From contig NZ_CP126247.1 of NCBI RefSeq assembly GCF_030142155.1, positions 1,426,001-1,490,000 on the forward strand: 64,000 nt of DNA, given 5' to 3'. A program made the translations under genes and the position numbers. Under the pieces are notes generated by a model that searched no databases, was not told the origin of the DNA, and was given only the letters and a program-made list of their open reading frames with translations. Source of the stretch: Arthrobacter sp. zg-Y820. GTDB taxonomy: Bacteria > Actinomycetota > Actinomycetes > Actinomycetales > Micrococcaceae. The first letter of the stretch is position 1. Every line of letters begins with the position of its first letter. Of the stretch, positions 18,275 to 41,957 are shown in pieces.

Positions 18275-18330
18275 CGAGATGGCAGTAAGTGCATGTCCCA
18301 GGGCTGGGACGAGCACTTACTGCCATCTCG
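18275..18330. repeat. 56-bp two-stem palindromic element, copy 1
   Basis: Outer arms CGAGATGGCAGTAAGTGC (18275-18292) and GCACTTACTGCCATCTCG (18313-18330) are perfectly complementary over 18 bp. The inner arms GTCCCAG/CTGGGAC (18295-18301, 18304-18310) form a second 7-bp stem with a GG centre. It lies between two convergent genes. The same 56-base architecture recurs at 30827-30882 and 41902-41957. Confidence 0.9.
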
Positions 18331-18365
18331 CGGAACTGCTGAGCCGCGTGCGGTACCGGAACGCA

Positions 18366-18800
18366 TTACGCGTATAGGGCGCCCACCATTGAGCCGAGCC
18401 CGCCGGCCAGGACGTGAGCCTGGGACAGCGGCATCCACCAACACTCCCAGCGTTTCGGCCCGCCGCCGTGTTCGGGATCGTCTTCACCGGCTTGCCAGCG
18501 TTCACTGAGGGGACGTGCAGCGGTGGTGAGGAGGAAAAAATGGCGGGTGGCTATTTCGAACCGGGCCGGGGAATAGTCGTACGCCGCGGTCCCCAGGTTC
18601 CGCACCACTGTCGCACCCAGACCGGTTTCCTCCCGCACTTCCCGAACCGCCGCTGCTGCCGGAGCCTCCCCAGGGCGCACCGTTCCCGCCGGCACCTGGA
18701 CGCCGGCCACTTCCAACGGAACATCGAGATGGGTGAAAACCAGCAGGTGTTCCTGGCAGACCACATAGCAGACGGCTTTGGTGCTGGTGCTCTTCTCCAT
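18366..18800 (-). CDS. NUDIX hydrolase
   Basis: 144-residue NUDIX domain protein. The box GX5EX7REUXEEXGU is intact as GTVRPGEAPAAAAVREVREE followed by TGLG (about residues 39-62), with the catalytic Glu residues present, so it should hydrolyse a nucleoside diphosphate linked to another moiety. The substrate cannot be inferred. The Trp-rich KRWECWWMPL region near the C-terminus is typical of the fold's last strand. A minus-strand TAGGCT hexamer ends six bases before the ATG, so the mRNA is probably leaderless. It lies downstream of panB in the same direction but 287 bases away. Confidence 0.9.
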   Translation of the reverse strand: MEKSTSTKAVCYVVCQEHLLVFTHLDVPLEVAGVQVPAGTVRPGEAPAAAAVREVREETGLGATVVRNLGTAAYDYSPARFEIATRHFFLLTTAARPLSERWQAGEDDPEHGGGPKRWECWWMPLSQAHVLAGGLGSMVGALYA

Positions 18801-18806
18801 CGGATG

Positions 18807-18812
18807 AGCCTA
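18807..18812 (-). promoter_or_regulatory. Leaderless -10 hexamer of the NUDIX gene
   Basis: Minus-strand TAGGCT, six bases before the ATG at 18800. Confidence 0.55.
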
Positions 18813-18918
18813 CATTCCGGCTGCGTTCGGCGGCCCGGGGCTGCGCGGGCAGCAACGGTTCAGGTTTCTTGGCCTTTTGCGGCGCCTGAGCGCGTGCCGG
18901 CGGGGATACGGCGGGTTC

Positions 18919-19003
18919 GCGCACCAGTTCCCACCCTTTGTGACGCCTGTTACTGGTGGGACCACATTAGTAACAGGAATGCACAGACAGTGGGAACCAG
19001 CGC
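18919..19003. repeat. Nested inverted repeat between panB and the NUDIX gene
   Basis: The outer arms GCGC (18919-18922) plus GTTCCCAC (18927-18934) pair with GTGGGAAC (18990-18997) plus GCGC (19000-19003). The inner arms CCTGTTACT (18946-18954) and AGTAACAGG (18969-18977) form a second, perfect 9-bp stem. The rest of this 287-base gap holds no credible gene. The GCGC...GTTCCCACC string also occurs in the 213-bp duplicated unit at 33.1-33.6 kb. Confidence 0.65.
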
Positions 19004-19087
19004 GGCTGAGGCCGAGCAAGGCCCCGCCAGGCGGACCTGCCCGCCGGGAGGCGGCCTTGGAGCGGGAGGCGGAACGCCGATCCGCTC

Positions 19088-19957
19088 CTAGAAGCTGTGC
19101 TCCGGCCCCGGGAACGTGCCGCTGCGCACTTCATCGGCGTAGGCGCGTGCCGCGGAGGACAGGACCGAGCGGACATCCGCAAACTGCTTGACGAAACGCG
19201 GCAGCTTGTCCCCGCGCATTCCGGCCATGTCCTGCCAGACCAGGACCTGCCCGGTGGTGGCGTTGCCGGCGCCGATGCCGATGGTGGGAACGGCAACGGC
19301 GGCATCCACCTCGGCGGCGACGTCGGCCGGCACCATTTCCATCAGGACACAGAAGGCTCCCGCCTCGGCCAGGGCGGCGGCGTCGTCGAGCACTGTCCGG
19401 CGCGCGTCGCCGCGGCCCTGCACCCGATAGCCGCCCAGGGCATGCTCACTCTGCGGCGTGAAGCCCACATGCGCCATCACCGGAATCCCCGCGGCCACCA
19501 GAGCGCTGACGTGCGGCGCGTAAAACGCACCGCCCTCCATCTTGACCGCGTGCACCAGCCCCTCCTTGAGGAGGCGGATGGAGGACTCGACGGCCTGCGC
19601 GGGGGAGATCTCGTAGGAGCCGAAGGGCAGGTCGCAGACCACCAGGGCGCGGCTCGCTCCGGACGTCACCGAACGTGCGAACACGATCATCTCGTCGAGC
19701 GTGATCGGCAGCGTGGTGGCGTGGCCCATGACGTTGTTCGCCGCCGAATCACCCACCAGCAGCACCTCGATGCCGGCCTCGTCGAAGATGGCGGCGGTGT
19801 ACTGGTCATAGGCGGTGAGCATCGCGAAATGCTGTCCTGAATCCTTGATCTGCTGCAGGTGCGGGATGCGGATCCGGCGCGGTCCGGCGGGTTTCCCGGG
19901 GGCAGCGGAGCTGGCAGGTCCGGCAGTGTAGGGGGCGGGGTGTTCGGCGTCGGTCAT
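19088..19957 (-). CDS. panB: 3-methyl-2-oxobutanoate hydroxymethyltransferase
   Basis: First enzyme of pantothenate synthesis; it transfers a hydroxymethyl group from methylene-tetrahydrofolate to 2-oxoisovalerate. TIM-barrel motifs: [20 protein letters not shown] (about residues 45-64), [19 protein letters not shown] (metal Asp), [16 protein letters not shown] and [20 protein letters not shown]. The 289-residue length includes a Pro/Ala-rich N-terminal extension of about 27 residues before RIPHLQQIK. The ATG at 19957 has TAGGCT six bases upstream, so it is probably leaderless. No panC or panD is adjacent. It is divergent from glnA2. Confidence 0.96.
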
Positions 19958-19963
19958 GCGCCG

Positions 19964-19969
19964 AGCCTA
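19964..19969 (-). promoter_or_regulatory. Leaderless -10 hexamer of panB
   Basis: Minus-strand TAGGCT, six bases before the ATG at 19957; no -35 match. Confidence 0.55.
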
Positions 19970-20131
19970 CTAAACAAGCGCGGCGTTGCGGCCCCGGTCC
20001 CGCAAGCCGGTACCGCTGACTGCGGCAGCCGGCGGCGGCACGCAGGCACAAGCCGGCGGCGCGTGCAGTGCCGGCCGGCGTAATGCGGTGCCGCGCCAGC
20101 CTGCGACGGCGGTAATCCGCCGCGGGATAGG

Positions 20132-20137
20132 TAGAGT
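20132..20137 (+). promoter_or_regulatory. Candidate -10 of glnA2
   Basis: TAGAGT lies 75 bases before the glnA2 ATG in the 254-base divergent panB-glnA2 gap. No convincing -35 and no GlnR box (GTNAC-N6-GAAAC) was found here, in contrast with glnA1. Confidence 0.3.
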
Positions 20138-20211
20138 GAAGGAAGGCTTGAAACGCAGGGGCTGCCCGGAAGGATCCGGGTGCGGTCCCACAGTCCAGAA
20201 AGAGGGTAGGG

Positions 20212-21552
20212 ATGAACCGCCAGCAGGAATTCGTTTTGCGCACCATCGAAGAGCGAGACGTCCGGTTTGTGCGGTTGTGGTTTACCGATGTTGTGGGCAC
20301 GCTGAAGTCGGTGGCGCTGGCCCCCGCCGAGGTGGAAGGCGCCTTCGAGGAGGGCCTGGGCTTCGACGGTTCCTCGATCGAGGGCCTGGCCCGCGTCTTC
20401 GAGTCCGACATGCTGGCCCAGCCGGACCCCTCCACGTTCCAGATTCTGCCCTGGCGCGGTGACTCCGAGCAGACCTCCCGGATGTTCTGCGACATCCTCA
20501 CCCCGGACGGCCAGCCCTCCGCGGCCGATCCCCGCAACGTCCTCAAGCGCCAGCTGGCCAAGGCCGCTGACATGGGCTTCACTTGCTACACCCACCCCGA
20601 GATCGAGTTCTACCTGCTGAAGTCCGATGAGCTCGGTCCCGACGGCGAGCCCGTCCCCGTGGACCGGGCCGGCTACTTCGACCACGTTCCCGGCGGCGTG
20701 GCCCAGGACTTCCGCCGCACGGCTGTCTCCATGCTCGAAGCCGTGGGCATCTCGGTGGAGTTCAGCCACCACGAGGCCGGCCCCGGCCAGAACGAAATTG
20801 ACCTGCGCTACGCTGATGCGCTGCAGACGGCCGACAACATCATGACGTTCCGCACCGTGGTCAAGGAAGTGGCACTGACCACCAGCTGCTACGCCACGTT
20901 CATGCCCAAGCCGTTCTCCGACCACCCCGGTTCCGGCATGCACACGCACCTGTCCCTGTTCGAGGGCGACACCAACGCGTTCTTCGAAGCCGGAGCCGAG
21001 TTCCAGCTCTCCCGCACCGCCCGCCAGTTCATCGCCGGCGTGCTGCGCCACGCGCCGGAGTTCACCGCGGTGACGAACCAGTTCGTCAATTCCTACAAGC
21101 GGCTCTGGGGCGGCGGCGAAGCCCCGAGCTACGTGTCCTGGGGCCACAACAACCGCTCCGCCCTGGTCCGGGTTCCGCTGTACAAGCCGGGGAAGGGCCA
21201 GTCGGCGCGCATCGAATACCGCGGCATTGACTCAGCAGCCAACCCGTACCTGTCCTACGCCGTCCTGCTCGGCGCCGGGCTCAAGGGCATTGAAGAGGGC
21301 TACGAGCTGCCCGCCGGCGCAGAGGACGACGTCGAGAGCCTCTCGGCGGCCGAACGCCGCGCCATGGGCCTGGATCCGCTGCCGGCCTCGCTGCACGACG
21401 CCGTCCGGGCCATGGAAGAGTCCGAACTGGTGGCCGACATCCTGGGCGAGCAGGTCTTCGAGAACTTCCTGCGCAACAAGCGCGCCGAGTGGAACGAGTA
21501 CCGCCAGCACGTCACGCAGTTTGAGCTGAAGAAAAACCTGGGCATTCTCTAG
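20212..21552 (+). CDS. glnA2: Glutamine synthetase, GlnA2 type
   Basis: Type I glutamine synthetase fold of 446 residues, the shorter actinobacterial GlnA2 subgroup that lies beside glnE. Visible motifs: beta-grasp (RFVRLWFTDVVGTLKSV), GFDGSSIEG (about residues 50-58), metal/ATP site HPEIEFYLL, EFSHHEAGPGQNEIDLRY, the catalytic GSGMHTHLSLF, and NSYKRLWGGGEAPSYVSWG. Near the adenylylation position it reads GYELPAGAEDD, which keeps a Tyr followed by ELP but lacks the N/D-L-Y context of GlnA1. In related bacteria GlnA2 may contribute little to bulk glutamine synthesis. AGAGGG precedes the ATG. glnE starts 53 bases after its stop. Confidence 0.95.
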   Translation: MNRQQEFVLRTIEERDVRFVRLWFTDVVGTLKSVALAPAEVEGAFEEGLGFDGSSIEGLARVFESDMLAQPDPSTFQILPWRGDSEQTSRMFCDILTPDGQPSAADPRNVLKRQLAKAADMGFTCYTHPEIEFYLLKSDELGPDGEPVPVDRAGYFDHVPGGVAQDFRRTAVSMLEAVGISVEFSHHEAGPGQNEIDLRYADALQTADNIMTFRTVVKEVALTTSCYATFMPKPFSDHPGSGMHTHLSLFEGDTNAFFEAGAEFQLSRTARQFIAGVLRHAPEFTAVTNQFVNSYKRLWGGGEAPSYVSWGHNNRSALVRVPLYKPGKGQSARIEYRGIDSAANPYLSYAVLLGAGLKGIEEGYELPAGAEDDVESLSAAERRAMGLDPLPASLHDAVRAMEESELVADILGEQVFENFLRNKRAEWNEYRQHVTQFELKKNLGIL

Positions 21553-21605
21553 CCACCCGCCGGTACTGAGCGTTACGGAGGAATGAAGGATATGGAGGAC
21601 CTCCT

Positions 21606-24600
21606 ATGAGTCTCACCCGCCGGCTGATTGCCGCAGGCTTCACGGACCTGGAAAAAAGCAGCCGCTTCCTGCAGGCGCCCGAACTCGAGGGGCTGGACGA
21701 AGCGGTGCTGTTCACCGGGTTCCTGCAGGCCGCGGACCCGGACCTGGCCCTGCAGTCACTGGTGCGGCTGCTGGACCGGGTGCCCGAGCTGCGCGAGCTG
21801 GTCGAAGGCGGCGAAGAGGCAAGCGAAGCCCTCTTCCGGCTGCTGGGCGCCTCCGAGGCGCTGGCCGAATTCCTCATGCGCCACCCCGAGGCCGCCGACA
21901 GCCTGCGGGTGCCGCTGCGCGCTGAACCGGCGGAGGTACCGGGAGACATCCTCCGCGCGTCGCTGCTGGAATCGGTCAAGGCCGGCACCGGGGACGCTCC
22001 GGTGGCGGGCCTGACGGGGACCGAGGCGTACGTGGCCCTGCGTGCGCGGTACCGCAAGCACCTGCTGGACCTGGCCGTGCGCGACCTGGGGGCGGCGTCG
22101 CCCGCCGATGTCCTGCCCGCCGTCGGGCGCGAGCTCGCTGACCTGGCCGGCGCCGCCCTGGAGGCCGCGCTGGCGGTCTCCCGCGCGGAACTCGCCGCCA
22201 GCTATTCGGCGGAGGACATTTCCCGGGTGCGCCTTGCCGTGATTGCCATGGGCAAGTGCGGAGCCCGGGAGCTGAACTACATTTCCGACGTCGATGTCAT
22301 CTACGTGATGGAATCCGCCGGGCTCGACGAGACCCTGGCCGCGAAAATCGGCACCGCTCTCGCCGCCGGCATCTCCCGTGCGATCAACGCCTCGGCGCCC
22401 GAGCCGGCGCTGTGGGAGGTGGACACCAACCTGCGGCCCGAGGGCAAGGACGGCCCGCTGGTGCGCACCCTGGACTCCCACCTGAGCTACTACACCCGCT
22501 GGGCGCACACCTGGGAGTTCCAGGCGCTGCTCAAGGCCCGCGCCGCCGCCGGGGATCCCGACCTGGGCCGGCGCTACGAGGAAGCCGTGGCCCCGCTGAT
22601 CTGGTCCAGCACCGAACGCGAGGGTTTCGTGGAGTCGGTCCAGGCCATGCGCCGCAGGGTGACCGACAACATTCCCGGCCACGAGGAGGCCCGCCAGCTG
22701 AAGCTGGGCAGCGGCGGCCTGCGCGACGTCGAATTCACCGTCCAGCTGCTGCAGCTGGTGCACGGCCGGACCGATGAAACGCTGCGGGTGCGCGCCACGA
22801 CGGCTGCCATCGCGGCCCTGAGTGAGGGCGGCTACATCGGGCGCAGCGACGCCGTCGACCTCGACGCCGCCTACCGCTACCTGCGCGTCCTGGAGCACCG
22901 CATCCAGCTGGTGCATATGCGCCGCACGCACCTGATGCCGGACACCGAACCGGCCCTGCGCGCCCTGGCCAAGGCCGCCAGCGGTTCGCTCGCCGTAGGC
23001 CGGCCCACCGCCGAACGGCTGACCGACACCTGGCAGCGCACCAAGCGCCTCGTCCGCCGGCTGCACGAAAGCATCTTCTATCGCCCGCTGCTGAACACCG
23101 CCTCCAACCTCAGCGTGGACGAGGTCAAGCTCTCTCCGGCCGCCGCACAGGCCCGGCTCGCAGCGCTGGGTTATGCGGATCCGAAGGGGGCCATGCGGCA
23201 CATCGAGGCCCTCACCGTCGGGATCAGCCGCCGCGCCGCCCTCCAGCGCCAGCTGCTGCCGGTGCTGCTGGGCTGGCTGGCCGACGGCGTGGACCCCGAC
23301 GCCGGGCTGCTGGGCTTCCGGCGGCTGAGCGAGTCGCTGGGGGAGACGCACTGGTACCTGGGGATGCTGCGTGATTCCTCGGCCGCGGGGGAGCGGCTGT
23401 GCTCCATCCTGTCGTCCAGCCGGTTCATCACGGACCTGCTCGAGGTCTCGCCCGAAGCCACCGCCTGGCTGGCCACCGACAAGGACCTGACCCCGCTGTC
23501 GTTTGACGCGCAGTGGCAGGAAATCCGGTCCAAAATGTCCCGCCACCCCGATCCGCGGGCGGCCATGCGGCTGGTCCGCCTGATCCGGCGCCGGGAAATG
23601 CTGCGCATCGCGCTCGCCGACAGCGCCGGGCTGCTGACGCAGGAGGAAGTTGGCCGGGCGCTCGCCGACGCCGACCGGGCAGCGGTCCTGGGGGCGCTGC
23701 ACGTCGCCGAGGGCGAGGTGTTCGCCGGCGAGGAGAAACTCACGGACATGCTGGTGGTGGCCATGGGCCGCCAGGGCGGCCGCGAAATCGGCTACGGGTC
23801 CGACGCCGACGTCCTGTACGTCCACCGTGCCGTGCCCGGGGCCGACCCGGGCGCTGCCCAGTCCCAGGCCGAACGCATTGTCGGCCAGCTCTCGGCCCTG
23901 CTGCAGCAACCGTGCACGCCGGCGATCCTGGCGGAAAAAGTGCTGGTCCTGGATGCCGGCCTGCGCCCGGAAGGGCGCAACGGTCCGCTGGTGCGCAGCC
24001 TGGGGTCCTACCGCGAGTACTACAGCCGCTGGTCGCTGATCTGGGAGGCGCAGGCACTGGTCCGCGCCCGCCCGATGGCCGGCAGCGACGACCTGGCCGA
24101 GGACTTCATCGACCTCATCGATCCCATCCGCTACTCAGCCGGCGTGAGCGAAAACGACATCCGCGAGATCCGCCGCATCAAGGCGCGGGTGGAAAATGAA
24201 CGACTGCCCCGCGGGGCGGATTCCTCCCGGCAGCTGAAGCTCGGCCGCGGCGCCCTCAGCGACGTCGAGTGGCTGGTGCAGCTGCTGCAGCTCGAGTACG
24301 CCGGCACACATCCGGAGCTCCGGACCACCGCCACGCTGCCGGCGCTGGACGCAATCGCGGCTGCCGGCCTGCTGCCCGAGGCGGATACGGCCATCCTGCG
24401 GGAGGCTTGGCTGCTCGCCAGCCGGATCCGAAGCGCCAACGTCATCCGCGGCGGACGGAACCCCGACGTGTTGCCTTCCTCACGTCGGGAGCTCGAGGCA
24501 GTGGCCCGCTGGTGCGGCTACGGCGCCGGCCAGGGAGGCGTTTTGGAGGAAAACTACCTACGAATCACGCGCCGATCGCGGGCAGTCTTCGAACGCTGGT

Positions 24601-24623
24601 TCTACGGCTACAACTCCCACTGA
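21606..24623 (+). CDS. glnE: Bifunctional glutamine synthetase adenylyltransferase/deadenylase
   Basis: Controls glutamine synthetase by adding or removing AMP on a Tyr. It has the expected two nucleotidyltransferase halves: the N-terminal one (deadenylase in E. coli) carries MGKCGARELNYISDVDVIYV at about residues 216-235, and the C-terminal one carries MGRQGGREIGYGSDADVLYV at about residues 719-738; both keep the G-S/D-x-D metal motif. Each half is followed by an RQLKLG(S/R)G helical region. The 1005-residue length is typical for actinobacteria. GGAGG (21594-21598) lies seven bases before the ATG. It follows glnA2 directly; the main target GlnA1 is encoded 6-10 kb downstream on the other strand. 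Confidence 0.97.
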   Translation: MSLTRRLIAAGFTDLEKSSRFLQAPELEGLDEAVLFTGFLQAADPDLALQSLVRLLDRVPELRELVEGGEEASEALFRLLGASEALAEFLMRHPEAADSLRVPLRAEPAEVPGDILRASLLESVKAGTGDAPVAGLTGTEAYVALRARYRKHLLDLAVRDLGAASPADVLPAVGRELADLAGAALEAALAVSRAELAASYSAEDISRVRLAVIAMGKCGARELNYISDVDVIYVMESAGLDETLAAKIGTALAAGISRAINASAPEPALWEVDTNLRPEGKDGPLVRTLDSHLSYYTRWAHTWEFQALLKARAAAGDPDLGRRYEEAVAPLIWSSTEREGFVESVQAMRRRVTDNIPGHEEARQLKLGSGGLRDVEFTVQLLQLVHGRTDETLRVRATTAAIAALSEGGYIGRSDAVDLDAAYRYLRVLEHRIQLVHMRRTHLMPDTEPALRALAKAASGSLAVGRPTAERLTDTWQRTKRLVRRLHESIFYRPLLNTASNLSVDEVKLSPAAAQARLAALGYADPKGAMRHIEALTVGISRRAALQRQLLPVLLGWLADGVDPDAGLLGFRRLSESLGETHWYLGMLRDSSAAGERLCSILSSSRFITDLLEVSPEATAWLATDKDLTPLSFDAQWQEIRSKMSRHPDPRAAMRLVRLIRRREMLRIALADSAGLLTQEEVGRALADADRAAVLGALHVAEGEVFAGEEKLTDMLVVAMGRQGGREIGYGSDADVLYVHRAVPGADPGAAQSQAERIVGQLSALLQQPCTPAILAEKVLVLDAGLRPEGRNGPLVRSLGSYREYYSRWSLIWEAQALVRARPMAGSDDLAEDFIDLIDPIRYSAGVSENDIREIRRIKARVENERLPRGADSSRQLKLGRGALSDVEWLVQLLQLEYAGTHPELRTTATLPALDAIAAAGLLPEADTAILREAWLLASRIRSANVIRGGRNPDVLPSSRRELEAVARWCGYGAGQGGVLEENYLRITRRSRAVFERWFYGYNSH

Positions 24624-24735
24624 CCCCGGAGCCGCCAGTCTCCCGGTTAGTTCCTGCGCCGTGCGCTCGGTAGTCTCTATGAGGCATTATCGGCATTTCT
24701 GTGCCGTTTCGGAACATCTAGGAGACGTTTTCACC

Positions 24736-29249: not shown

Positions 29250-30050
29250 ATGACCACCTACCAATCACCTGGCACCGCCATACGGGTCCAGGGAATCCAG
29301 AAGTCATTCAAGGACCTGCACGTACTGCGGGGGGTCACCTTCGATGTGGGCCGGGGGAGCATCTTTGCGCTGCTCGGCTCGAACGGTGCAGGCAAGACCA
29401 CGCTGGTGCGGATACTGGCGACAACATTGACGGCCGACGCCGGCAGTGCCACGGTCTGCGGCTTCGACGTCGCCGCCAAACCCGGCGGCGTCCGCGGGTC
29501 GATCAGCCTGACCGGCCAGTTCGCGGCAATCGATGACGTGCTGACAGGCAGGGAGAACCTTGTCCTTATCGCCAAGCTGCGCCAGCTGAAGAAACCCGGC
29601 AAGATTGCCGACGACCTGCTCGCCCGGTTCTCGCTGAGCGATGCCGGAAATCGCAGGGCTTCGACCTACTCGGGCGGCATGCGCCGGCGGCTGGACATTG
29701 CGATGAGCCTCATCGGCCATCCGCCGGTCGTCTTCTTGGACGAGCCGACCACCGGCCTCGACCCCCAGGCACGCATCGAGGTGTGGCAGACCATCAGGCA
29801 ACTCGCCGACAACGGCACCACGGTGCTGCTCACGACACAGCATCTCGACGAGGCGGAGCATCTCGCCGACCGGATCGCGATCCTCCACAGGGGCACGATC
29901 ATTCAGAACGGCACCCTCGCTGAACTCAAGCAGCTCCTTCCACCCGCCAAGGTCGAGTACATCGAGAAGAGGCCCTCCCTGGAGGACGTCTTCCTCAGCC
30001 TTGTTGGGGGCAGCGACGGCCCGGTTTCTTCGGGAGAGGACCTGAGATGA
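29250..30050 (+). CDS. ABC exporter ATP-binding protein (DrrA type)
   Basis: 266-residue ATPase of the daunorubicin-resistance DrrA family. Walker A GSNGAGKTT (about residues 43-51), Q-loop SLTGQFAAIDDVLTG, signature YSGGMRRRLDIAMSL, Walker B VVFLDEPTTGLDPQ and H-loop LTTQHLDEAEHLADR are all intact. The C-terminal tail after EYIEKRPSLEDVFLSLVGG is short. It overlaps the permease gene by four bases (ATGA). With PadR it likely exports a drug or an endogenous hydrophobic compound; the substrate is not known. Confidence 0.94.
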   Translation: MTTYQSPGTAIRVQGIQKSFKDLHVLRGVTFDVGRGSIFALLGSNGAGKTTLVRILATTLTADAGSATVCGFDVAAKPGGVRGSISLTGQFAAIDDVLTGRENLVLIAKLRQLKKPGKIADDLLARFSLSDAGNRRASTYSGGMRRRLDIAMSLIGHPPVVFLDEPTTGLDPQARIEVWQTIRQLADNGTTVLLTTQHLDEAEHLADRIAILHRGTIIQNGTLAELKQLLPPAKVEYIEKRPSLEDVFLSLVGGSDGPVSSGEDLR

Positions 30051-30811
30051 CCACGCACACGCTCGGCAACACACGTGTCCTGACCGGACGGTCGCTGCGC
30101 CACATCCAGCGCAGCCCCGACACGATCATCACCACCGCCGTTACGCCCGTCGCCCTGATGCTCCTGTTTGTCTACGTCTTCGGCGGCGCGATAAACACCG
30201 GATCCGACGAGTCCTACGTGAACTACATGCTTCCCGGCATCCTGCTGATTACCATCGCGTCCGGCGTCGCCTACACTGCCTACCGGCTTTTCCTTGACCT
30301 GCAGGGCGGCATCTTCGAACGCTTTCAGTCAATGCCCATCGCGAGGTCGAGCGTGCTCTGGGCGCACGTCTTCACCTCCCTGGCGGCGAACCTGATCTCC
30401 ATCGCGGCGGTCACCGGCGTCGCGCTGATCCTGGGGTTCCGCAGCGGAGCCTCAGCGGCTGCGTGGCTCGCCGTCCTGGGAATCCTGCTCCTGTTTACCC
30501 TGGCGCTGACGTGGATCGCTGTGCTTGCCGGGCTCTCGGCCAAGACTGTCGACGGCGCGAGCGCGTTCAGCTACCCGCTGATCTTCCTGCCGTTCATCAG
30601 CTCGGCCTTCGTTCCCACCGGCACCATGCCCGGCCCGGTGGCCTGGTTTGCCGAGAACCAGCCCGTGACATCCATCGTGGACACCATCCGGGCCCTGTTC
30701 GCGCAGCAGCCCGTCGGCAGCGACATCTGGATAGCCCTCGGCTGGCTCGCCGGTATCCTCGCTCTGGGCTACGCCTTGGCGACTGCCAAGTACCGCAGCA
30801 AAATCACCTGA
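30047..30811 (+). CDS. ABC-2 type exporter permease (DrrB type)
   Basis: 254-residue membrane protein with about six helices, partner of the preceding ATPase, whose TGA overlaps the start ATG. Recognisable family features are the N-terminal LTGRSLRHIQRSPDTIITTA, the GIFERFQSMPIARSSVLWAH coupling region and the ABC-2 signature SYPLIFLPFISSAFVPTGTM. It ends the padR operon. A 56-bp palindromic element follows 15 bases after the stop in the convergent gap with glnA1. Confidence 0.93.
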   Translation: MTTHTLGNTRVLTGRSLRHIQRSPDTIITTAVTPVALMLLFVYVFGGAINTGSDESYVNYMLPGILLITIASGVAYTAYRLFLDLQGGIFERFQSMPIARSSVLWAHVFTSLAANLISIAAVTGVALILGFRSGASAAAWLAVLGILLLFTLALTWIAVLAGLSAKTVDGASAFSYPLIFLPFISSAFVPTGTMPGPVAWFAENQPVTSIVDTIRALFAQQPVGSDIWIALGWLAGILALGYALATAKYRSKIT

Positions 30812-30826: not shown

Positions 30827-30882
30827 CGAAATGGCACAAAGTGCTCGTCTGAGCGCTGAGAAGAGCACTTTCTGCCATCTCG
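30827..30882. repeat. 56-bp two-stem palindromic element, copy 2
   Basis: Outer arms CGAAATGGCACAAAGTGC (30827-30844) and GCACTTTCTGCCATCTCG (30865-30882) pair at 16 of 18 positions, extended inward by TC/GA. The inner 16 bases (30847-30862) form a weaker stem around AGCGCT. Total length and spacing are identical to copies 1 and 3. It lies between convergent genes (exporter permease and glnA1). Confidence 0.85.
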
Positions 30883-30893: not shown

Positions 30894-30956
30894 CGAAACA
30901 AAAAAAGAGTCCGCACGTGCAGCCGTCACCGAAGTGCCGGCCGCTCGTGCGGACTC
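30894..30956 (-). terminator. Intrinsic terminator of glnA1
   Basis: GAGTCCGCACG (30907-30917) and CGTGCGGACTC (30946-30956) form a perfect 11-bp stem with a 28-base loop. On the minus strand it is followed by TTTTTTTGTTT, an excellent T-run, 36 bases after the glnA1 stop. Confidence 0.9.
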
Positions 30957-30992: not shown

Positions 30993-32417
30993 TTAGCAGC
31001 CGTAGTACAGCTCGAACTCGTACGGGTTCGGGCGCAGCAGGAGCGGCTTGATCTCGTATTCGCGCTTGTACTCGATCCAGGTGTCAATCAGGTCCTGGGT
31101 GAAGACACCGCCGGCCTGGAGGAACTCGTTGTCGTTCTCCAGGGCCTCCAGTGCTTCTTCCAGGGAGCCCGGTGCCAGCTGGATGCCGCGGGCCTCTTCC
31201 GGCGGAAGCTCGTAGAGGTCCTTGTCGATCGGGTCCGCCGGCTCGATGCGGTTCTTGATGCCGTCCAGGCCGGCCATCAGCTGGGCCGAGAACGCCAGGT
31301 ACGGGTTCGAGGAGGCATCCGGGGCGCGGAACTCAATGCGCTTGGCCTTCGGGTTCGAGCCCGTGATCGGGATGCGGATACCGGCCGAGCGGTTGCCCTG
31401 CGAGTAGACCATGTTCACGGGAGCTTCAAAGCCCTTGACCAGGCGGCGGTAGGAGTTCACCGTCGGGTTGGTGAAGGCCAGGACGGCGGAAGCGTGCTTG
31501 AGCAGGCCGCCGATGTACCAGCGTGCGACGTCGGACAGGCCGGCGTAGCCCTTCTCGTCGTAGAACAGGGGAGTGCCGCCGTTCCAGAGCGACTGGTGGC
31601 AGTGCATGCCCGAACCGTTGTCGCCGAAGATGGGCTTGGGCATGAAGGTTGCGGACTTGCCCCAGGCATCCGAGGTGTTCTTGACGATGTACTTGAACTT
31701 CAGCAGATCATCGGCAGCATGCGTCAGGGTGGTGAACTTGTAGTTGATCTCTGCCTGGCCGGCGCCGCCGACCTCGTGGTGGGCGCGCTCAACCTCAAGG
31801 CCGGCGTTGTCCAGCTCGACGCAGATGGCGTCGCGGAGGTCGGCCTGCTTGTCCACGGGAGCTACGGGGAAGTAGCCGCCCTTGAACGGCGTCTTGTTGC
31901 CGAGGTTTCCGCCTTCTTCTTCGCGGCCGCTGTTCCAGGGCGCCTCAATCGAGTCGACCTTGTAGAAGCTGCCCTGCGGGGAAGACTCGTACTGGACGTT
32001 GTCGAAGATGAAGAACTCGGCCTCGGACGCGAAGTACGCGGTGTCGGCAATGCCGGTGGAGGAGAGGTAAGCCTCGGCACGCTCGGCCACGCCGCGCGGG
32101 TCGCGGTGGTACGGCTCGCCCGTGCGGGGGTTGACGATGGAGAAGTTCAGCGCCAGGGTCTTTTCGATGCGGAACGGATCCAGGAACGCCGTGGTGACGT
32201 CCGGGATCAGCTGCATGTCGGATTCGGCGATGCCCTGGAATCCGCGGATGGAAGAACCGTCGAAGAGCTGGCCATTGATGAAGAACTCTGCATCGACGGA
32301 TTTTGCCGGCACGTTGAAGTGCTGCTGCACTCCGGGGAGGTCGGTGAATCGGACGTCGACGAACTTGATATCTTCGTCAGCGATGAACTTGAGGACTTCG
32401 TCCGCAGTTTTGAACAT
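30993..32417 (-). CDS. glnA1: Glutamine synthetase I, GlnA1 (main, adenylylated form)
   Basis: 474-residue GSI-beta enzyme that makes glutamine from glutamate, ammonia and ATP as a dodecamer. The ATG at 32417 is chosen because AAAAGGAGC precedes it and [20 protein letters not shown] is the family N-terminus. Motifs: [18 protein letters not shown] (metal site), [46 protein letters not shown], and [13 protein letters not shown], whose Tyr near residue 401 is the GlnE adenylylation site. A two-box GlnR operator lies about 110-147 bases upstream and an intrinsic terminator follows, so it is a monocistronic, nitrogen-regulated gene. It is convergent with the exporter operon. Confidence 0.98.
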
Positions 32418-33665: not shown

Positions 33666-33681
33666 AGGTATCTGTCCATGC

Positions 33682-35586: not shown

Positions 35587-36305
35587 AGCATGGCTCCTTT
35601 CGGCCGGCCGGCTGCGGTTGCGCCGGTTTCCGGAGTTGCGGTGTCCGTGGTCCCAACGGGATGTTCGCGGACGAGGTGGTCCCGGCGGCGGAGAAGTTCT
35701 TCTTCCACACGGGCCACCAGGTCGGTCGGAGTGACCGTGCGGCCGGTCTCGGCCGAAAGCGTGGTGGTGCCGGCGTCGGCGATTCCGCAGGCGACAATCT
35801 GGCCGTAGGGAGCCAGATCGTTGCTGCAGTTGAGCGCGAACCCGTGCATGGTGACGCCGTGGTCCACCCGGATGCCGATGGCAGCGATCTTGCGGTCACT
35901 GCCGCCGCCGCGCACCCACACGCCGGAGCGGCCCGCCACCCGTTCGCCGGCAACGCCGTAGTCCGCCAGCACACTGATCAGCGCGGCTTCGAGCGTGTCC
36001 ACATAGTTGGCGACCTTGCTGGGATCGGGCAGCCGAAGGATGGGATAGCCAACCAGCTGGCCCGGGCCGTGCCAGGTCAGCTTTCCGCCGCGGTCCACCG
36101 GTATCACCGGAGTTCCGTCAAACGGACGCTCGTGGTCCTCCGTGCGCCGGCCCGCGGTGTAGACCGGGGAATGCTCCAGCAACAGCACGGTGTCGGGGGC
36201 TGTGCCGGCCCGGACCCGCTCGTGCAGTGCGCGCTGCCGGTCCCAGCCGTCGCGGTATTCCACATAGTGCGGGGCGAGACCGATGCGCAGGAACTCCAAA
36301 GTCAT
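35583..36305 (-). CDS. lipB: Octanoyltransferase
   Basis: Transfers octanoate from acyl carrier protein to the lipoyl domain Lys of target proteins. Motifs: [40 protein letters not shown] (about residues 73-92), [20 protein letters not shown] with the catalytic Lys, and VACGI with the catalytic Cys (about residue 186). 240 residues including a short divergent C-terminal tail. A minus-strand TAGGCT ends six bases before the ATG, the leaderless pattern. It is divergent from the Ser/Thr kinase gene and overlaps lipA by four bases. Confidence 0.97.
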
Positions 36306-36311
36306 GGGGCC

Positions 36312-36317
36312 AGCCTA
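36312..36317 (-). promoter_or_regulatory. Leaderless -10 hexamer of lipB
   Basis: Minus-strand TAGGCT, six bases before the ATG at 36305. Confidence 0.6.
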
Positions 36318-36380
36318 GACTGCCGGAGCGCAAGTTCCGACTGTGGTTTGGCTCACACCGCCTCAGGAGTCGCAGCCGGT

Positions 36381-36389
36381 TGTGGATAA
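36381..36389 (-). other. Consensus DnaA box
   Basis: Minus-strand TTATCCACA, a perfect match to the strongest DnaA binding site, in the 123-base divergent gap between lipB and the kinase gene. A single 9-mer can occur by chance, although it is AT-rich for this genome. Confidence 0.35.
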
Positions 36390-36415
36390 CTTCTGCACGC
36401 GCCCGGGATCCGGTC

Positions 36416-36421
36416 TAGAAC
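36416..36421 (+). promoter_or_regulatory. Leaderless -10 hexamer of the kinase gene
   Basis: TAGAAC ends seven bases before the ATG at 36429. Confidence 0.5.
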
Positions 36422-36428
36422 AGAGGGC

Positions 36429-38162
36429 ATGGAGTTCAACGGAGCTATCGGGACAGCGCGTCCGCCGGTGATCGAGCAGGGGTACCGGGCCGCGCGGCTG
36501 CTGGGCTCGGGCAGCACGGCCCGGGTCTGGCTGGCGGTCCGCGAGCACGACGGCGCCTGCTTCGCTTTGAAGACACCGGCGGCGGGCGGCGGCCCCGCCG
36601 GTACGTTCGAAACCCGGCGGGAGCTGAACATCCTCTCGCGGTTCGAACACGAGAACCTGCTGCACCTGTACACGGTGCTGGAGACGGACCAGGGGCCGGG
36701 GCTGCTCATGGAACACGCGCCGGGGGAGTCACTGTCCCGCCTGGCGGCCGTCCGCGGAACCCTGACGCCGGGGGAATCGGTCACGGTCCTGGTGGGCATC
36801 GGCTCCGCGCTCGCCTATCTGCACGGACAGGGAGTTGTTCACGGCGATGTTTCGCCCGGAAACATTCTGTTCTCTGCGCAGGGCAAGCCGCTGCTCGCCG
36901 ACCTGGGAACCGCCCGCCTGCTCGGGACGGCGGGGCCGGGTGTCCCGCCGGCACCGCCTGCTGTCGACGCCGCCGCGGAACCGGTCGCTCCTGAATGGCT
37001 GCCGCAGCCCGATGCTGACGTATTTGCCCTTGCCGCGTCGGGCTGGCTCATCCTGACCGGACAGGCCCTGCCCCCGCAAGAGCACCGTCCGCGGCTTGAG
37101 GCGCTGGTTCCCGGGATTCCGCCGGCGCTCGCCGCTGCAGTGGAAGCAGGGTTGCGGGCAGACGCCCCTCGCCCGGACGCCGCGGAGTTCACCCGGCTGG
37201 TCTTTGCCTCCGCCGCTGCGGAACCGCTGGACCTGGCGCTTCCCGTTAACGGTGACGGCGGACCCGGGGCGGAATCCCGCCGCGCCCGAATCGAACTGGG
37301 GCGGGCCTCCGCCGGGCTGCGGGCCTCCGCCGGGCTGCGGGCGCGGGGCCGGCGCCGAACATCCGGACGGCGTGCGGGCCCGGATGAGCGGATAACGGAG
37401 CGCAGACGCCCCAACCGGCTGCTGCTGAGCGCGGCGGCCGTCCTGGTGGCGGGCACGATGGGGCTGGGAGCCGTAGCGGTGGCTGCTCCGGAAATGCTGC
37501 AGCCGCAGGGCAGCCCGGCCCCGGAAGGCCAGACGCCGGAAGGCCAGACTCCGGAAGGCTCGAGGCCGGAAGGCCAGAGTCCGGAAGGCCCGGCCCCGGC
37601 CGGGCCCGGCGCTGCAGCCCCGGAGCAGGGCGATGCGCCGGAAGCAGATGCATCTGCGGTTCCGGCACAGCCGCCGGGCACTGCACAAGCTGTGGCGCCG
37701 CGACCGGAGGCCGCCCCTGGCCCGGGTCCGCTGGCACTGGTTCCGGAGCCCGAACTCCAGGCACTGCTGCGTGCAGATGATCCGGTACGGGCGGCGGCGG
37801 CCCTCGCGGAACTGCGTGCCCGGGCCTTCAGCACGGCCGACGCCGGGCTGCTGGACGGGGTCAATCTTCCGGGGTCATCAGCCATGGAAGCCGACCGGGC
37901 CGAGGTCGCCAAGCTCGAGGCAGCCGGAACCGTCCTCTCCGGCCTCACCGTGGAGGTCCTGTCCGCGGGTCCGGCGCTGCCGGGGGAGGGCGGGCGGTTC
38001 AGCGTGCCGGCAGCAGTGTCCACGTCGGCCTACGCCGAGCGTGACGCGCACGGCGGCATGGTCCGCGGTGCGGAAGCGCTGTCTCGTCAGGACATTGTCC
38101 TTGTCATGGTGAACACTCCGGACGGATGGCGGATCGAGGACATCCTGGCCTCGCCCGCCTGA
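36429..38162 (+). CDS. Membrane-anchored Ser/Thr protein kinase
   Basis: 577 residues. The Hanks-type kinase domain (about residues 17-270) has the Gly-rich loop LLGSGSTARVWLA, the Lys in CFALKTP, a catalytic loop HGDVSPGNILF (HGD in place of HRD, with the catalytic Asp and Asn present), DLGTARLLG in place of DFG, and an APEW motif. A basic Arg-rich juxtamembrane stretch leads to one helix near residues 330-355 (LLLSAAAVLVAGTMGLGAVA). The outer part begins with a PEGQ/PEGS repeat and Pro/Ala-rich linker, then a domain of about 130 residues without PASTA repeats. An extracellular sensor is implied, but no ligand is known. The start is leaderless-like. Kinase activity is probable given the intact key residues. 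Confidence 0.88.
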   Translation: MEFNGAIGTARPPVIEQGYRAARLLGSGSTARVWLAVREHDGACFALKTPAAGGGPAGTFETRRELNILSRFEHENLLHLYTVLETDQGPGLLMEHAPGESLSRLAAVRGTLTPGESVTVLVGIGSALAYLHGQGVVHGDVSPGNILFSAQGKPLLADLGTARLLGTAGPGVPPAPPAVDAAAEPVAPEWLPQPDADVFALAASGWLILTGQALPPQEHRPRLEALVPGIPPALAAAVEAGLRADAPRPDAAEFTRLVFASAAAEPLDLALPVNGDGGPGAESRRARIELGRASAGLRASAGLRARGRRRTSGRRAGPDERITERRRPNRLLLSAAAVLVAGTMGLGAVAVAAPEMLQPQGSPAPEGQTPEGQTPEGSRPEGQSPEGPAPAGPGAAAPEQGDAPEADASAVPAQPPGTAQAVAPRPEAAPGPGPLALVPEPELQALLRADDPVRAAAALAELRARAFSTADAGLLDGVNLPGSSAMEADRAEVAKLEAAGTVLSGLTVEVLSAGPALPGEGGRFSVPAAVSTSAYAERDAHGGMVRGAEALSRQDIVLVMVNTPDGWRIEDILASPA

Positions 38163-38223
38163 GCGCCGTGCCGACATGGCGGCGCCGGGCCTGTCCCTGG
38201 GGTGTCCTGTCCGGCCTGAAAGA

Positions 38224-38229
38224 TAGGAT
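38224..38229 (+). promoter_or_regulatory. Leaderless -10 hexamer of the tricorn gene
   Basis: TAGGAT ends seven bases before the ATG at 38237; GGGGA between them is too close to the start codon to serve as a ribosome binding site. Confidence 0.5.
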
Positions 38230-38236
38230 CGGGGAC

Positions 38237-41200
38237 ATGAGTTCAACTCCCTATCTTCGCTTTCCCGATCTGCACGACGACCTCGTCACCTTTGTGGCGG
38301 AAGACGACGTCTGGGTCGCCTCGCTGACCGGGGGCCGCGCGTGGCGGATCTCCTCGATGCATCTCCCGGCACGCAATCCCCGGTTTTCCCCCGACGGCGC
38401 CACCATCGCGTGGAGCGTCGTGCAGGGCAGCGCGCCCGAGGTGGTCGCGGCGGATACGGCCGGCGGAGACTTCCGCCGGCTGACCTACTGGGGCAACCAG
38501 GGCACCAGGGTCAAGGGCTTCAGCGCAGCCGGCAACGTGATCGCGATCAGCCCCTTCGAACACGAGGACTTCCGGCTGCGCTGGGCCTACGAAGTGCCCC
38601 TGGACGGCTCCGCCCCGCTGGCCCTGCCGTACGGCCCGGTGGACGCCGTGGCCCAGGGCCCGGCCGTGGGCGATGAGCGTCCCGTCGTCATCGGCTCCGT
38701 GATGACCCGCGAACCGGCCTGGTGGAAGCGCTACCGCGGCGGCACCGCCGGCAAGCTCTGGATCGATGCAGACGGCAACGGCGAGTTTGAGCGGCTCGTG
38801 CCGGAACTGGACGGCAACCTGACCGATCCCATGTGGATCGACGGCCGCATCGTCTTCCTCTCCGACCACGAGGGGTACGGCAACCTCTACTCGGTGACGC
38901 CGCAGGGAACGGACCTGCGCCGGCACACCGACTTCGGCGAGTTCTATGTCCGCCATGCCTCGACGGACGGGCACCGGATCGTCTTTGAATCCGCCGGCAC
39001 CCTCTGGCTGCTGCCCTCGCTTGAGGACGACGCCCGGCCGCTGGACATCACCCTGGGCTCGGCCGGCACCGGCCGGCGGCCGCAGCCGCTGAACGTCGGC
39101 GCGCACCTGGCGGCTGTCATGCCGGACACCGAAGGCACCGCCTCCGTGGTGGAGTCCCACGGCACGCTGCACTGGCTGACGCACCGCGACGGACCGTCCC
39201 GCGTCATCGAAGCGGACTCCGCCGTCCGTGCCCGGCTGGGCCGGCCGCTGGCCGACGGCCGGGCCGTCTATGTGGCGGACCACGACGGCGAGGAATCCCT
39301 CTACGTCCGCAGTGTCTTTGCCGAGCTGGACCTGCCCGACGGCGCCGCCTCCGCCGTCCGGGACGGCCAGCCCGCCGCCTCCGCGGCAGCGCCCGTGCCC
39401 GGGGCCGCAGCCCCGGCCGCCGCCGAGCCTGAAATTGTCCTGCCCCGCCCGGTCTCGGCCGCCACCCGCACCCCGGTGCCGGTCCCGGCCACGGCACCGG
39501 CGCGCGAAGACAAGCCGCCGGTGGCCCCGGCAGGAGCGGAACCGGTCCGGCCGGAGGAGGACACGGAAACGTCGGCGGTACCGGCGGAGAAATCCCCGCG
39601 CACACTGCGCATCCCCTTCGACAAGCCCACCCGCGTCGCCCAGATCACCGCCAGCCCGGACGGAACCGCTGTTGCGGTATCCACCGAATACGGCGAGGTC
39701 TACCTGCTGGATCCCGCCGGCGGCGCCCTGGCCCGCATTGCCGCCACCGGTCACGGCGCCGTGGACCAGCTGGCGTTCTCTCCCGACTCACAGTGGCTGG
39801 CCTGGTCCGAGCCGGTGACCGGGGAAGGCGCACGGGCCCGAATCCGGGTGCACTCGGCAACGGATCCCGCGGCCGGGACCATCGAGGTGACCGACGGCCG
39901 TTTCCGCGACCATGCCCCGGCCTTCACCGTGGACGGACGCTACCTGGCGTTCCTGTCCGAGCGCAGCTTCGACCCGGTTTATGACACCCACCGCTTCGAC
40001 CTGAGTTTCCCGTCCTCCACCAAGCCCTTCCTCGTCGCCCTCGCGGCGGATACGCCGTCGCCCTTCGGCCCCTCCGTCCACGGCCTTCCGGTGCCACGCG
40101 CCGAACAGCCTCCGGTGTCCTCGGATGATCCGGCCGAAGCGGCCCCTTCGGGCCCGCGATCGGTGATTGACGCCGTCGGCATCTCTGACCGGATCATCAG
40201 TGTGCCGGTGCCGCAGGGCCGCTACGAAAAGCTCACGGCGGCCGACGGCGCCCTGCTCTGGCTGGCGTCCGACACTTACGGGGTCACCGGCGACGGCCGG
40301 GCCTCGACCCGCGACCGGCAGCCCGCCGGCCGGCTGGAACGCTTCGACCTGGAGAAGAAGGACGTGTCGGTCCTGGTGCCGGCCCTGGAGGATTACGAGA
40401 TCAGCGGCGACGGCCGCAAGGTCGTGTTTGTCCACGAGCAGCAGGTGCACGCCGTCCCGTCGTCGTCGCGCGCCGACAACGACTCGCCGGAGAACGTCAC
40501 CGTGGATCTCACCCGCATCCGCGTCCTGCTGGATCCGCTGAAGGTCTGGGGCCAGGAATTCGATGAAGCGTGGCGCCTGCAGCGAGACTTCTTCTGGGCG
40601 CCGGACATGGGCGGACTGGACTGGAAGGGCATCCACGCCCGGTACCGGCCGCTGATTGACCGGCTCGGCTCGCACGATGACCTGGTGGACGTGCTGTGGG
40701 AGATGCAGGGCGAGCTGGGCACATCCCACGCGTATGTTGCGCCCCGGCCGGCGGCCGAGCCCGGTGCCGGCGCGCAGGGCTTCCTGGGCGCCGATCTGCG
40801 CCCCGGCCCGGGCGGCTGGGAAGTGGTGCGGATCCTGTCCGCGGAATCCTCCGACCCGCAGGCCGTGTCGCCGCTGGCGGCTCCCGGGGCCGACGTGCAC
40901 CCGGGCGACATCATCGCCGCCGTCGACGGCCGGCCGGTTCCGGCGGACCAGGGCCCGGCGCCGCTGCTCTCCAGCGCTGCCGGCAGCACCGTGGAACTGA
41001 CCATCGTCCGGACGGCGGAGGACGGCGCCGGCGCACCCAGCCAGCGCCGGATCGCCGTCGTGCCCCTGCGCAGCGAGGAACGCCTGCGCTACCAGAACTG
41101 GGTCGCCGCGAACCGCAGGATTGTCCGGGAAGCCTCCAACGGAGGATTCGGCTACCTGCACATCCCCGACATGGTCGCCAACGGCTGGTCCCAGCTGCAC

Positions 41201-41872
41201 CGCGACCTGGACCAGGAGTCCTCCCGCAATGCGCTGATCGTGGACGTGCGGCGCAACCGCGGCGGCCACACCTCGCAGCTGGTCGCCGAACTGATCGGCC
41301 GGAAGGTCACCGCCTGGACGCTGGCCCGCGGCGAGCAGCCCAGCACCTACCCGGCGCATGCGCCCCGCGGACCGGTGGTGATCCTGACCGACGAGTTCGC
41401 AGGTTCCGACGGCGACATCATCACCCAGGTGGCCAAGCTGCGCGGGATCGGTCCCGTGATCGGCATGCGGACCTGGGGCGGCGTCGTCGGCATCGACGGC
41501 CGGTTCAAGCTGGTCGACGGCACGGGTGTGAACCAGCCGCGCTACGGCTTCTGGGTCACCGGCGGCATTGACTGGACGGTGGAGAACTACGGCGTGGATC
41601 CGGACATTGAGGTTCCGTTCCCGCCGCATGCCTATGCCGCCGGAGAGGATCCCCAGCTGGAGCACGGCGTGGGGATCCTGAAGGAAATGCTCTCCGAGCT
41701 GCCCACCGACCAGCCGCCGGCCCTGGCCGGCTACCCGGCGCTGCAGCCCGCTCCGCTGCCGCCGCGCCCGCAGCCGACGCCGGCAGCAGGGGCCCGGCCG
41801 GGCACATCAGCGGCTCCGGCGCCGGTTTCGGCTGCCGGCGCCGCCGGTGACCGGGAGGCCGGGCGGCACTAA
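38237..41872 (+). CDS. Tricorn protease homologue
   Basis: Large cytoplasmic serine protease of 1211 residues that degrades oligopeptides released by the proteasome or other proteases. Order of domains: six-bladed beta-propeller (from YLRFPDLHDDLVTFVAEDDVWVAS), second propeller, C1 helical domain (EAWRLQRDFFWAPDMGGLDW), PDZ domain (about residues 840-930) and the C2 catalytic core. The nucleophile is in DEFAGSDGDII (about residue 1056), the catalytic His in ELGTSHAYV (about residue 829). A Pro/Ala-rich insertion of about 80 residues (about 372-455) separates the propellers and a similar tail ends the protein. ATG 38237 is used; the frame extends to 38126 without a ribosome binding site. Confidence 0.93.
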   Translation: MSSTPYLRFPDLHDDLVTFVAEDDVWVASLTGGRAWRISSMHLPARNPRFSPDGATIAWSVVQGSAPEVVAADTAGGDFRRLTYWGNQGTRVKGFSAAGNVIAISPFEHEDFRLRWAYEVPLDGSAPLALPYGPVDAVAQGPAVGDERPVVIGSVMTREPAWWKRYRGGTAGKLWIDADGNGEFERLVPELDGNLTDPMWIDGRIVFLSDHEGYGNLYSVTPQGTDLRRHTDFGEFYVRHASTDGHRIVFESAGTLWLLPSLEDDARPLDITLGSAGTGRRPQPLNVGAHLAAVMPDTEGTASVVESHGTLHWLTHRDGPSRVIEADSAVRARLGRPLADGRAVYVADHDGEESLYVRSVFAELDLPDGAASAVRDGQPAASAAAPVPGAAAPAAAEPEIVLPRPVSAATRTPVPVPATAPAREDKPPVAPAGAEPVRPEEDTETSAVPAEKSPRTLRIPFDKPTRVAQITASPDGTAVAVSTEYGEVYLLDPAGGALARIAATGHGAVDQLAFSPDSQWLAWSEPVTGEGARARIRVHSATDPAAGTIEVTDGRFRDHAPAFTVDGRYLAFLSERSFDPVYDTHRFDLSFPSSTKPFLVALAADTPSPFGPSVHGLPVPRAEQPPVSSDDPAEAAPSGPRSVIDAVGISDRIISVPVPQGRYEKLTAADGALLWLASDTYGVTGDGRASTRDRQPAGRLERFDLEKKDVSVLVPALEDYEISGDGRKVVFVHEQQVHAVPSSSRADNDSPENVTVDLTRIRVLLDPLKVWGQEFDEAWRLQRDFFWAPDMGGLDWKGIHARYRPLIDRLGSHDDLVDVLWEMQGELGTSHAYVAPRPAAEPGAGAQGFLGADLRPGPGGWEVVRILSAESSDPQAVSPLAAPGADVHPGDIIAAVDGRPVPADQGPAPLLSSAAGSTVELTIVRTAEDGAGAPSQRRIAVVPLRSEERLRYQNWVAANRRIVREASNGGFGYLHIPDMVANGWSQLHRDLDQESSRNALIVDVRRNRGGHTSQLVAELIGRKVTAWTLARGEQPSTYPAHAPRGPVVILTDEFAGSDGDIITQVAKLRGIGPVIGMRTWGGVVGIDGRFKLVDGTGVNQPRYGFWVTGGIDWTVENYGVDPDIEVPFPPHAYAAGEDPQLEHGVGILKEMLSELPTDQPPALAGYPALQPAPLPPRPQPTPAAGARPGTSAAPAPVSAAGAAGDREAGRH

Positions 41873-41901
41873 CGGCAGAGAGCCGGCCGCCCGCATCCCG
41901 C

Positions 41902-41957
41902 CGAAATGGCAGAAGGTGCTGTTCCCAGAGCTGGGAACATCACCTTCTGCCATTTCG
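41902..41957. repeat. 56-bp two-stem palindromic element, copy 3
   Basis: Outer arms CGAAATGGCAGAAGGTG (41902-41918) and CACCTTCTGCCATTTCG (41941-41957) are perfectly complementary over 17 bp. Inner arms GTTCCCAG/CTGGGAAC (41921-41928, 41931-41938) are perfect over 8 bp. It lies between the convergent tricorn and osmC genes. Confidence 0.9.

Follow-up and report, generated by a model that had tools for sequence, protein, structure and literature searches.

How transcripts end without clear U-tracts in high-GC actinobacteria is debated. TRIT, a terminator model for Mycobacterium tuberculosis from the RNIE paper, reportedly captures a sequence-conserved, taxon-restricted actinobacterial hairpin. 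Use of TRIT is mentioned in PMC3526491. REPs are described as units of 20-40 bp, mostly with a GTAG or CGTC tag (PMC3733652), and RAYT transposases are described as associated with them. In terminators of Bacillus cereus, G-U pairs are reported as the commonest intermediate (PMC5381666), and template switching has been proposed to create and maintain hairpins (PMC8794818). We analyzed a family of 56-bp palindromes that is a new variant of dispersed 3'-end hairpins and is not described in the literature searched. No description of the family was found in a search that had limited reach into subscription papers, which is hence no proof of novelty.

Results

The window, that is, the whole stretch of DNA analyzed, comprises 64,000 nucleotides of Arthrobacter sp. 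zg-Y820 (NCBI RefSeq assembly GCF_030142155.1, contig NZ_CP126247.1, positions 1,426,001 to 1,490,000). The original prediction named three palindromes of equal length, and all were found at the positions given below, each exactly 56 bp long. The palindromes and their neighbor genes are as follows.

18069..18245, plus strand: 58-aa ORF without a Pfam match, with its stop 29 bp ahead of copy 1
18275..18330, no strand: palindrome copy 1, arms 18275-18292 and 18313-18330, inner dyad 18295-18310
18366..18800, minus strand: NUDIX-domain gene (Pfam PF00293), convergent, ending 35 bp past copy 1
30047..30811, plus strand: ABC-2 type permease gene (Pfam PF01061), ending 15 bp ahead of copy 2
30827..30882, no strand: palindrome copy 2, arms paired at 16/18 positions, inner dyad broken
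30907..30956, minus strand: terminator-like hairpin separate from copy 2, followed by T7 on the minus strand (30900-30906), behind the glutamine synthetase gene
30993..32417, minus strand: glutamine synthetase gene (Pfam PF00120), convergent to copy 2
38237..41872, plus strand: tricorn/S41-type peptidase gene (Pfam PF03572, PF14684, PF14685), ending 29 bp ahead of copy 3
41902..41957, no strand: palindrome copy 3, arms paired at 17/18 positions
41981..42409, minus strand: OsmC-family gene (Pfam PF02566), convergent, ending 23 bp past copy 3

All three palindromes lie between convergent genes, as had been claimed: the 58-aa ORF and the NUDIX gene for copy 1, the ABC-2 permease and glutamine synthetase genes for copy 2, and the tricorn/S41 and OsmC genes for copy 3. 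The NUDIX gene was assigned from its Pfam match and was missed by the codon-model gene finder of this analysis. The proposed two-stem layout was complete in copy 1, where 18/18 arm positions paired. It was imperfect in copy 2, where arm positions 4 and 11 did not pair, and in copy 3, where position 18 did not. The proposed 16-base inner dyad was intact in copies 1 and 3 and broken in copy 2 (TCTGAG-CG-CTGAGA). On either strand, the copies folded much more stably than shuffled sequence, with RNA folding z-scores (one per strand) of -10.4/-11.6 for copy 1, -5.3/-7.2 for copy 2 and -11.1/-12.2 for copy 3. No Rfam family matched the window at the gathering score.

The three palindromes belong to a family with at least 34 places in the source genome (G000), so that the number is not limited to the three first seen. 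When G000 was searched with a strict two-arm pattern that allowed spacers of 15-25, 16 places matched, and every spacer was exactly 20; the reversed control pattern matched 0 places, and a single base keeps copy 3 out of the strict pattern. A covariance model trained on 17 copies matched at least 34 places (68 strand hits, the 17 training copies among them), which is a lower bound because 150 of 2089 first-look candidates were scored. The matches were 56 bp long in 30/34 places and 55 or 57 bp in the rest.

Among the 28 other genus genomes, 19 had a covariance-model match, with a range of about one to at least 48 places, and nine had none; 96 candidates per genome were scored under stricter filters, so high counts are minimum values and some diverged copies may have escaped detection. 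A family-wide (Micrococcaceae) sample, with 28 candidates scored per genome, revealed a match in 58/197 genomes and 17/32 genera, mostly at one to few places. In a first sample outside the family, 0/22 genomes matched. An order-wide sample gave matches in 15/198 genomes; 11 of the 15 belong to other families, and each of these had 1-4 weak strand hits (maximum 46.8 bits). Fetched loci from other genera numbered 21; the match was exactly 56 bp long at 11 of them and 55-57 bp long at 17. In several of these other-genus copies, TTCYCAG-NN-CTGRGAA in the inner part and CAGNARRTGC are retained, and the outer bases are altered on both sides. The G000-type pattern gave no match in a scan of named genomes, a collection that may leave out near relatives of the source genome; a wider pattern gave 10 loci there. 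Nine of these belong to Arthrobacter (A. koreensis, A. citreus, A. gandavensis and sp. Edens01), and the tenth to an uncultured Micrococcaceae bacterium. The 56-bp elements are a real, lineage-restricted family.

A core-only pattern (AGGTGC...GCACCT) was tried and rejected. Its hits outnumbered those of the reversed control in 11 of the 29 genus genomes but not in the remaining 18, and many of its hits were the 3' end of 16S rRNA.

The convergent placement extended beyond the window. In a set of 60 copies sampled from three genomes, 34 lay between convergent genes, compared with 13 of 136 control junctions (Fisher p about 7e-12), and a stop codon was present within 60 bp upstream in 52. The set comprised 23 of the 34 G000 copies, 17 of about 30 from G006 and 20 of at least 48 from G025, the G006 and G025 members being the matches listed, which are the best-scoring ones. 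The 11 G000 copies left out were near rRNA operons or a lone 5S (8) or off-length (3), and the NUDIX gene at copy 1 was added by hand. The control junctions, of which 4/46 in the window, 6/56 in G025 flanks and 3/34 in G006 flanks were convergent, are not a whole-genome sample. The copies were not scattered at random inside genes, since 0/34 places in G000 fell inside a gene called by the codon-model gene finder. By these calls, 16 of the 34 were convergent, 6 were co-directional on the plus strand (++), 3 on the minus strand (--), 3 were divergent and 6 had one side uncalled. At tight convergent junctions, the 56-bp element was the sole hairpin in 28/31 cases.

Base composition around the element was also examined. 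The 25 nt ahead of the hairpin, approached from either side, had C and G fractions of 0.47 and 0.20, compared with 0.37 and 0.31 in 139 control 3' flanks. This C-rich, G-poor leader would suit, but not prove, Rho loading. The outer flanks of the 34 G000 copies were loosely G-rich. In G025 copies (L229-L248), AT was often found beside the palindrome (right 15/20, left 11/20) with G-rich sequence further out, and G000 flanks had C/G instead. The placement alone is ordinary, because stable stem-loops in many bacteria are described as preferring convergent gene ends (PMC1590033). The unusual points of the 56-bp family are the near-fixed length, the repeated sequence and the joint sequence shifts.

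Like a terminator, the element forms a stable hairpin just downstream of genes (z of -5 to -12 for the window copies; 52/60 sampled copies within 60 bp of a stop codon). A U-rich tract directly after the stem was not found, and a classical terminator scan flagged 0/3 window copies; the same scan missed the glutamine synthetase hairpin as well. If only the inner stem formed, the 3' arm YTTCTGCCATYTCG, which is weakly U-rich, would be left right after the stem. Because the U-tract is lacking and the scan flags none of the copies, we describe the element as working like a bidirectional terminator and not as a canonical one.

Paired positions were found to change together, in agreement with the original prediction. 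When the 60 copies (58 distinct) were aligned, 18 of the 27 pairs had double changes and 94.3% of cells were paired. Because a model of the same structure served to find the copies, these counts, and those at the orthologous junctions described next, are biased towards pairing. The covariation score was 0.298, against 0.126 for shuffled and 0.045-0.104 for slid controls. Nine orthologous junctions of G000 and G006 were then compared, with orthology set by the flanks (by one aligned flank only at 752641; at 189673, one side is about 1 kb longer in G006). They contained 52 stem differences, among which 14 double changes preserved Watson-Crick pairing and 6 of these were transversions; the null expectation for such changes had a mean of 0.94 and a maximum of 6 in 5000 simulations. 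One-sided changes numbered 22 in the nine pairs, and 21 of them leave one species unpaired at that position. Outside the nine-pair set, three further shared G006 copies (G000 1456827, 1403388 and 1242437) had damaged outer arms.

In the sense RNA of co-directional copies, G-U mismatches numbered 8 and A-C mismatches 9, indicating no G-U preference. Taken with the transversions among the double changes (6/14), this leans towards coupling at the DNA level. The symmetry is kept, be it at the level of RNA or DNA, and template switching between the arms may contribute to it. Primary sequence was conserved at CGA, CAG, TGC and the inner CAG-NN-CTG. Stem positions 19-21 with 36-38 formed a recurrent loose step, often with G opposite A, which was the most mismatch-prone part of the stem.

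Comparison of relatives revealed presence and absence at orthologous junctions. At the glutamine synthetase junction (copy 2), an element was found in G000 and a decayed one in G006, and none in G010 and G021. G006 had no element at the orthologous junction of window copy 1, nor at 3334580, and G000 had none at the ortholog of G006 3329530. The G000 ortholog of G006:3813152 (L285) showed a possible deletion scar, CTCGCGGGGGAGGGGAG, opposite the full G006 element. At four junctions with an element in only one of the two genomes, the gap (22-78 nt) contained no hairpin scoring 9 or more in the unaligned stretch searched; the lack of a substitute hairpin speaks against a needed terminator there. 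The element was common to G000 and G006 at 13 of 17 resolved non-rRNA junctions. Copy number differed between close relatives (34 and 7; 30, 15 and 1), as counted with a model that may miss diverged copies. In a tree of two gene pieces, many-copy species fell into two groups, with strong contrasts between close relatives, and a third group had none or one.

Two osmC-type genes were followed across the genus. Behind the first, some hairpin was present, as a raw count, in 24 of the 28 other genus genomes and the 56-bp element in G000 only; the neighboring gene was not identical in all genomes. Behind osmC in G026, G008 and G015 (L098, L099 and L101), species without the family, a different perfect 56-bp palindrome was observed, CCAGCAGC...GCTGCTGG. 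The second osmC-type gene is 28% identical to the first and was followed by a hairpin in 20/20 fetched genomes (of 29). This hairpin was of the 56-bp type in nine species, namely G000, G006, G003 and G010 and, with other letters, G004, G016, G022, G023 and G025, and it was shorter in eleven. A tighter core pattern gave 0-4 places per genome in ten genomes, and for this reason the shorter hairpins do not resemble a dispersed family there. Of 42 fetched element loci whose surroundings were searched for the second osmC-type gene, two had it, and both are from the same genus.

Between the two clades, orthologous elements behind the second osmC-type gene differed at 18-23 of 56 positions, and within a clade at 0-7. 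Unrelated copies inside one genome differed at a median of 11-12 positions. Among the three genomes compared, 19 of 20 G025 copies had their nearest relative in their own genome, and 10 of 17 G006 copies were nearest to G000 ones, as expected of shared orthologs. Copies within a genome are more alike than orthologs between clades, which suggests that the copy sequences shift lineage by lineage. Paired-column shuffles reached the observed nearest-neighbor distance in 0, 15 and 3 of 500 cases in G000, G006 and G025, respectively, a modest linkage that fits shared descent of some copies, as expected. Support for dispersal itself comes from the likeness of copies located at unrelated junctions, from presence and absence between relatives and from the lineage-wide sequence shifts.

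The element was also located behind 5S genes. It lay 81-141 nt behind 5S at all five fetched rRNA operon ends of G000, and at one more 5S-like gene, which stands alone, the distance was 154 nt; the operon loci were fetched because they carry the element. All six 5S genes (the five operon ends and the lone 5S-like gene) had their own terminator-like hairpin ahead of the element. At the operon ends (L034, L027, L030, L035 and L031), each 5S was followed by the hairpin AGTAAGGCCCCGCC...GGCGGGGCCTTACT-TGTTT, with the 56-bp element next, and a second copy stood 81 bp further in L034 and about 570 bp further in L031. Most of the copies behind 5S formed a separate, asymmetric subtype. The lone gene (L038:2751-2860), located upstream of a 16S start, is 5S-like but diverged (44 bits), and it has a hairpin and an element of its own. 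In genomes with no or one match (G001, G008, G014, G015 and G027), a hairpin with a sequence unlike the 56-bp element was present behind 5S in 25/25 readable loci, a count that leaves out five truncated or misplaced G007 loci.

The original prediction had suggested REP/MITE-like hairpins moved by a transposase. The REP/RAYT version was not supported, as PF01797 (Y1 transposase) matched in 0 of 29 genus genomes; it matched in 5 of 14 named genomes used as a control. No GTAG or CGTC tag was detected in the flanks of the 34 G000 copies, and the G000 matches of 55-57 bp are outside the 20-40 bp of a REP unit. A dispersed, intergenic distribution with 3'-end and convergent bias is shared with REPs. 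No autonomous transposon sharing ends, as would be sought for a MITE, was seen in G000, the one genome covered, where 59 of 60 arm matches were in places found by the model. The idea that the 56-bp elements are ends of a larger element was rejected, since the arm search in G000 gave almost only paired arms. Weaker lone arms in G000 were seen at 534113 with one mismatch and at 953115 and other places with two.

Discussion

Of the three proposals made in the original prediction, the bidirectional transcription barrier fits best, with termination itself inferred. On balance, the 56-bp elements probably constitute a lineage-restricted family of bidirectional 3'-end hairpins working like two-way transcription terminators. 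Lying tens of bases behind a stop codon and often between convergent genes, the element would form a long, stable hairpin in each incoming transcript, behind a leader rich in C and poor in G and with a 3' half rich in pyrimidines (GCAC-YTTCTGCCATYTCG). For both genes, and with or without Rho, this hairpin could stop RNA polymerase, fix and protect the RNA 3' end, or both. The copies would have arisen by copying from existing copies, and may now be kept by selection, by template-switch repair of arm from arm, or by both. Counting for two-way 3'-end hairpins are the convergent and 3'-end positions, the tight junctions with the element as sole hairpin, the copies behind 5S, the hairpins of other types behind the two osmC-type genes and the paired changes. 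Counting against them are the missing U-tract and the negative terminator scan, the terminator-like hairpin already present ahead of the element at all six 5S genes, the nine of 28 other genus genomes without a match, the missing G-U preference and the four junctions without a substitute hairpin, which lowered our confidence slightly.

A REP/MITE-like mobile hairpin, non-autonomous, moved by some recombinase and tolerated mainly at gene ends without a needed function, appears rather unlikely. It would explain why copies are alike at unrelated junctions, why copy number is uneven among close relatives, why orthologous junctions differ in presence and absence (four without a substitute hairpin) and why copies within a genome are more alike than orthologs between clades; near-identical copies were also modestly above column-shuffled controls, and REPs are described as likewise preferring convergent and 3' positions (PMC3733652). 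However, a Y1 transposase was found in 0/29 genus genomes, no unpaired tag accompanies the loosely G-rich flanks, and 59/60 arm matches (0-1 mismatch) in G000 are within model places, with no larger element with such ends seen. The element common to G000 and G006 at 13/17 resolved non-rRNA junctions suggests that most insertions are not young, and no target duplication is definable because the flanks of element-free junctions are too diverged.

Symmetry could alternatively be upheld by mutation alone, if template switching between arms during replication kept the arms alike, and covariation would then need no function. The double changes are often transversional, with two sets adjacent and no G-U bias, and template switching has been proposed as both maker and keeper of hairpins (PMC8794818), yet this mechanism does not account for copies standing behind stop codons, for a length that hardly departs from 56 bp or for the conserved primary sequence, and as the sole cause it is improbable. 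The same primary sequence, conserved beyond pairing needs, together with the nearly fixed length and the arm sequence that shifts across a whole lineage, would suit recognition by a DNA-bending, nucleoid or terminus protein that binds the arms as half-sites and marks convergent junctions. Independent half-sites need no base-by-base co-change, yet 14 paired double changes were counted at nine orthologous sites, and lone arms are rare in G000. By itself, the nucleoid-protein site of the original prediction leaves these double changes unexplained, and we consider a protein site quite improbable.

Returning to two-way 3'-end hairpins, a further scenario, which we regard as unlikely, is that interchangeable terminators multiply as a population within genomes and are rewritten together. 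The 56-bp palindrome would have dispersed without an HUH transposase and settled at convergent junctions, with the sequence shifting genome-wide as if a sequence-reading termination factor and its sites co-evolved. The hairpin behind the second osmC-type gene, which was found in all 20 fetched genomes and once per genome in low-copy species (core pattern check), could be the founder. The family offers dozens of natural sites per genome that are much alike and suited to two-way tests, along with paired variants at orthologous junctions and relatives with and without elements. It also makes testable how a terminator-like sequence multiplies and stays alike across a genome without an obvious transposase.

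The 56-bp family can be compared with four known systems. It would resemble TRIT, as that model is reported, in being a sequence-conserved and taxon-restricted hairpin. With REP/REPIN sequences and RAYT, it shares dispersed extragenic palindromes, 3'-end and convergent enrichment and lineage-specific families, but the 56-bp element is longer and symmetrical, has no GTAG/CGTC tag and occurs without a Y1 transposase in 29 genomes. In the uptake-signal (USS/DUS) terminators of Neisseria and Pasteurellaceae, the signal is described as generally present 1,000 times or more, in single copies too (PMC1852404), whereas the arms of the 56-bp family occur almost only paired and in tens in G000, where the arm is not abundant as single copies. 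Bidirectional intrinsic (Rho-independent) terminators are alike in having a stable hairpin near stop codons that is common to two converging transcripts and in their paired double changes. The 56-bp element differs from them in that it has no U-tract outside the stem and is negative in the terminator scan, and the family is distinguished by a 27-bp stem, conserved primary sequence, dozens of copies and a nearly constant length.
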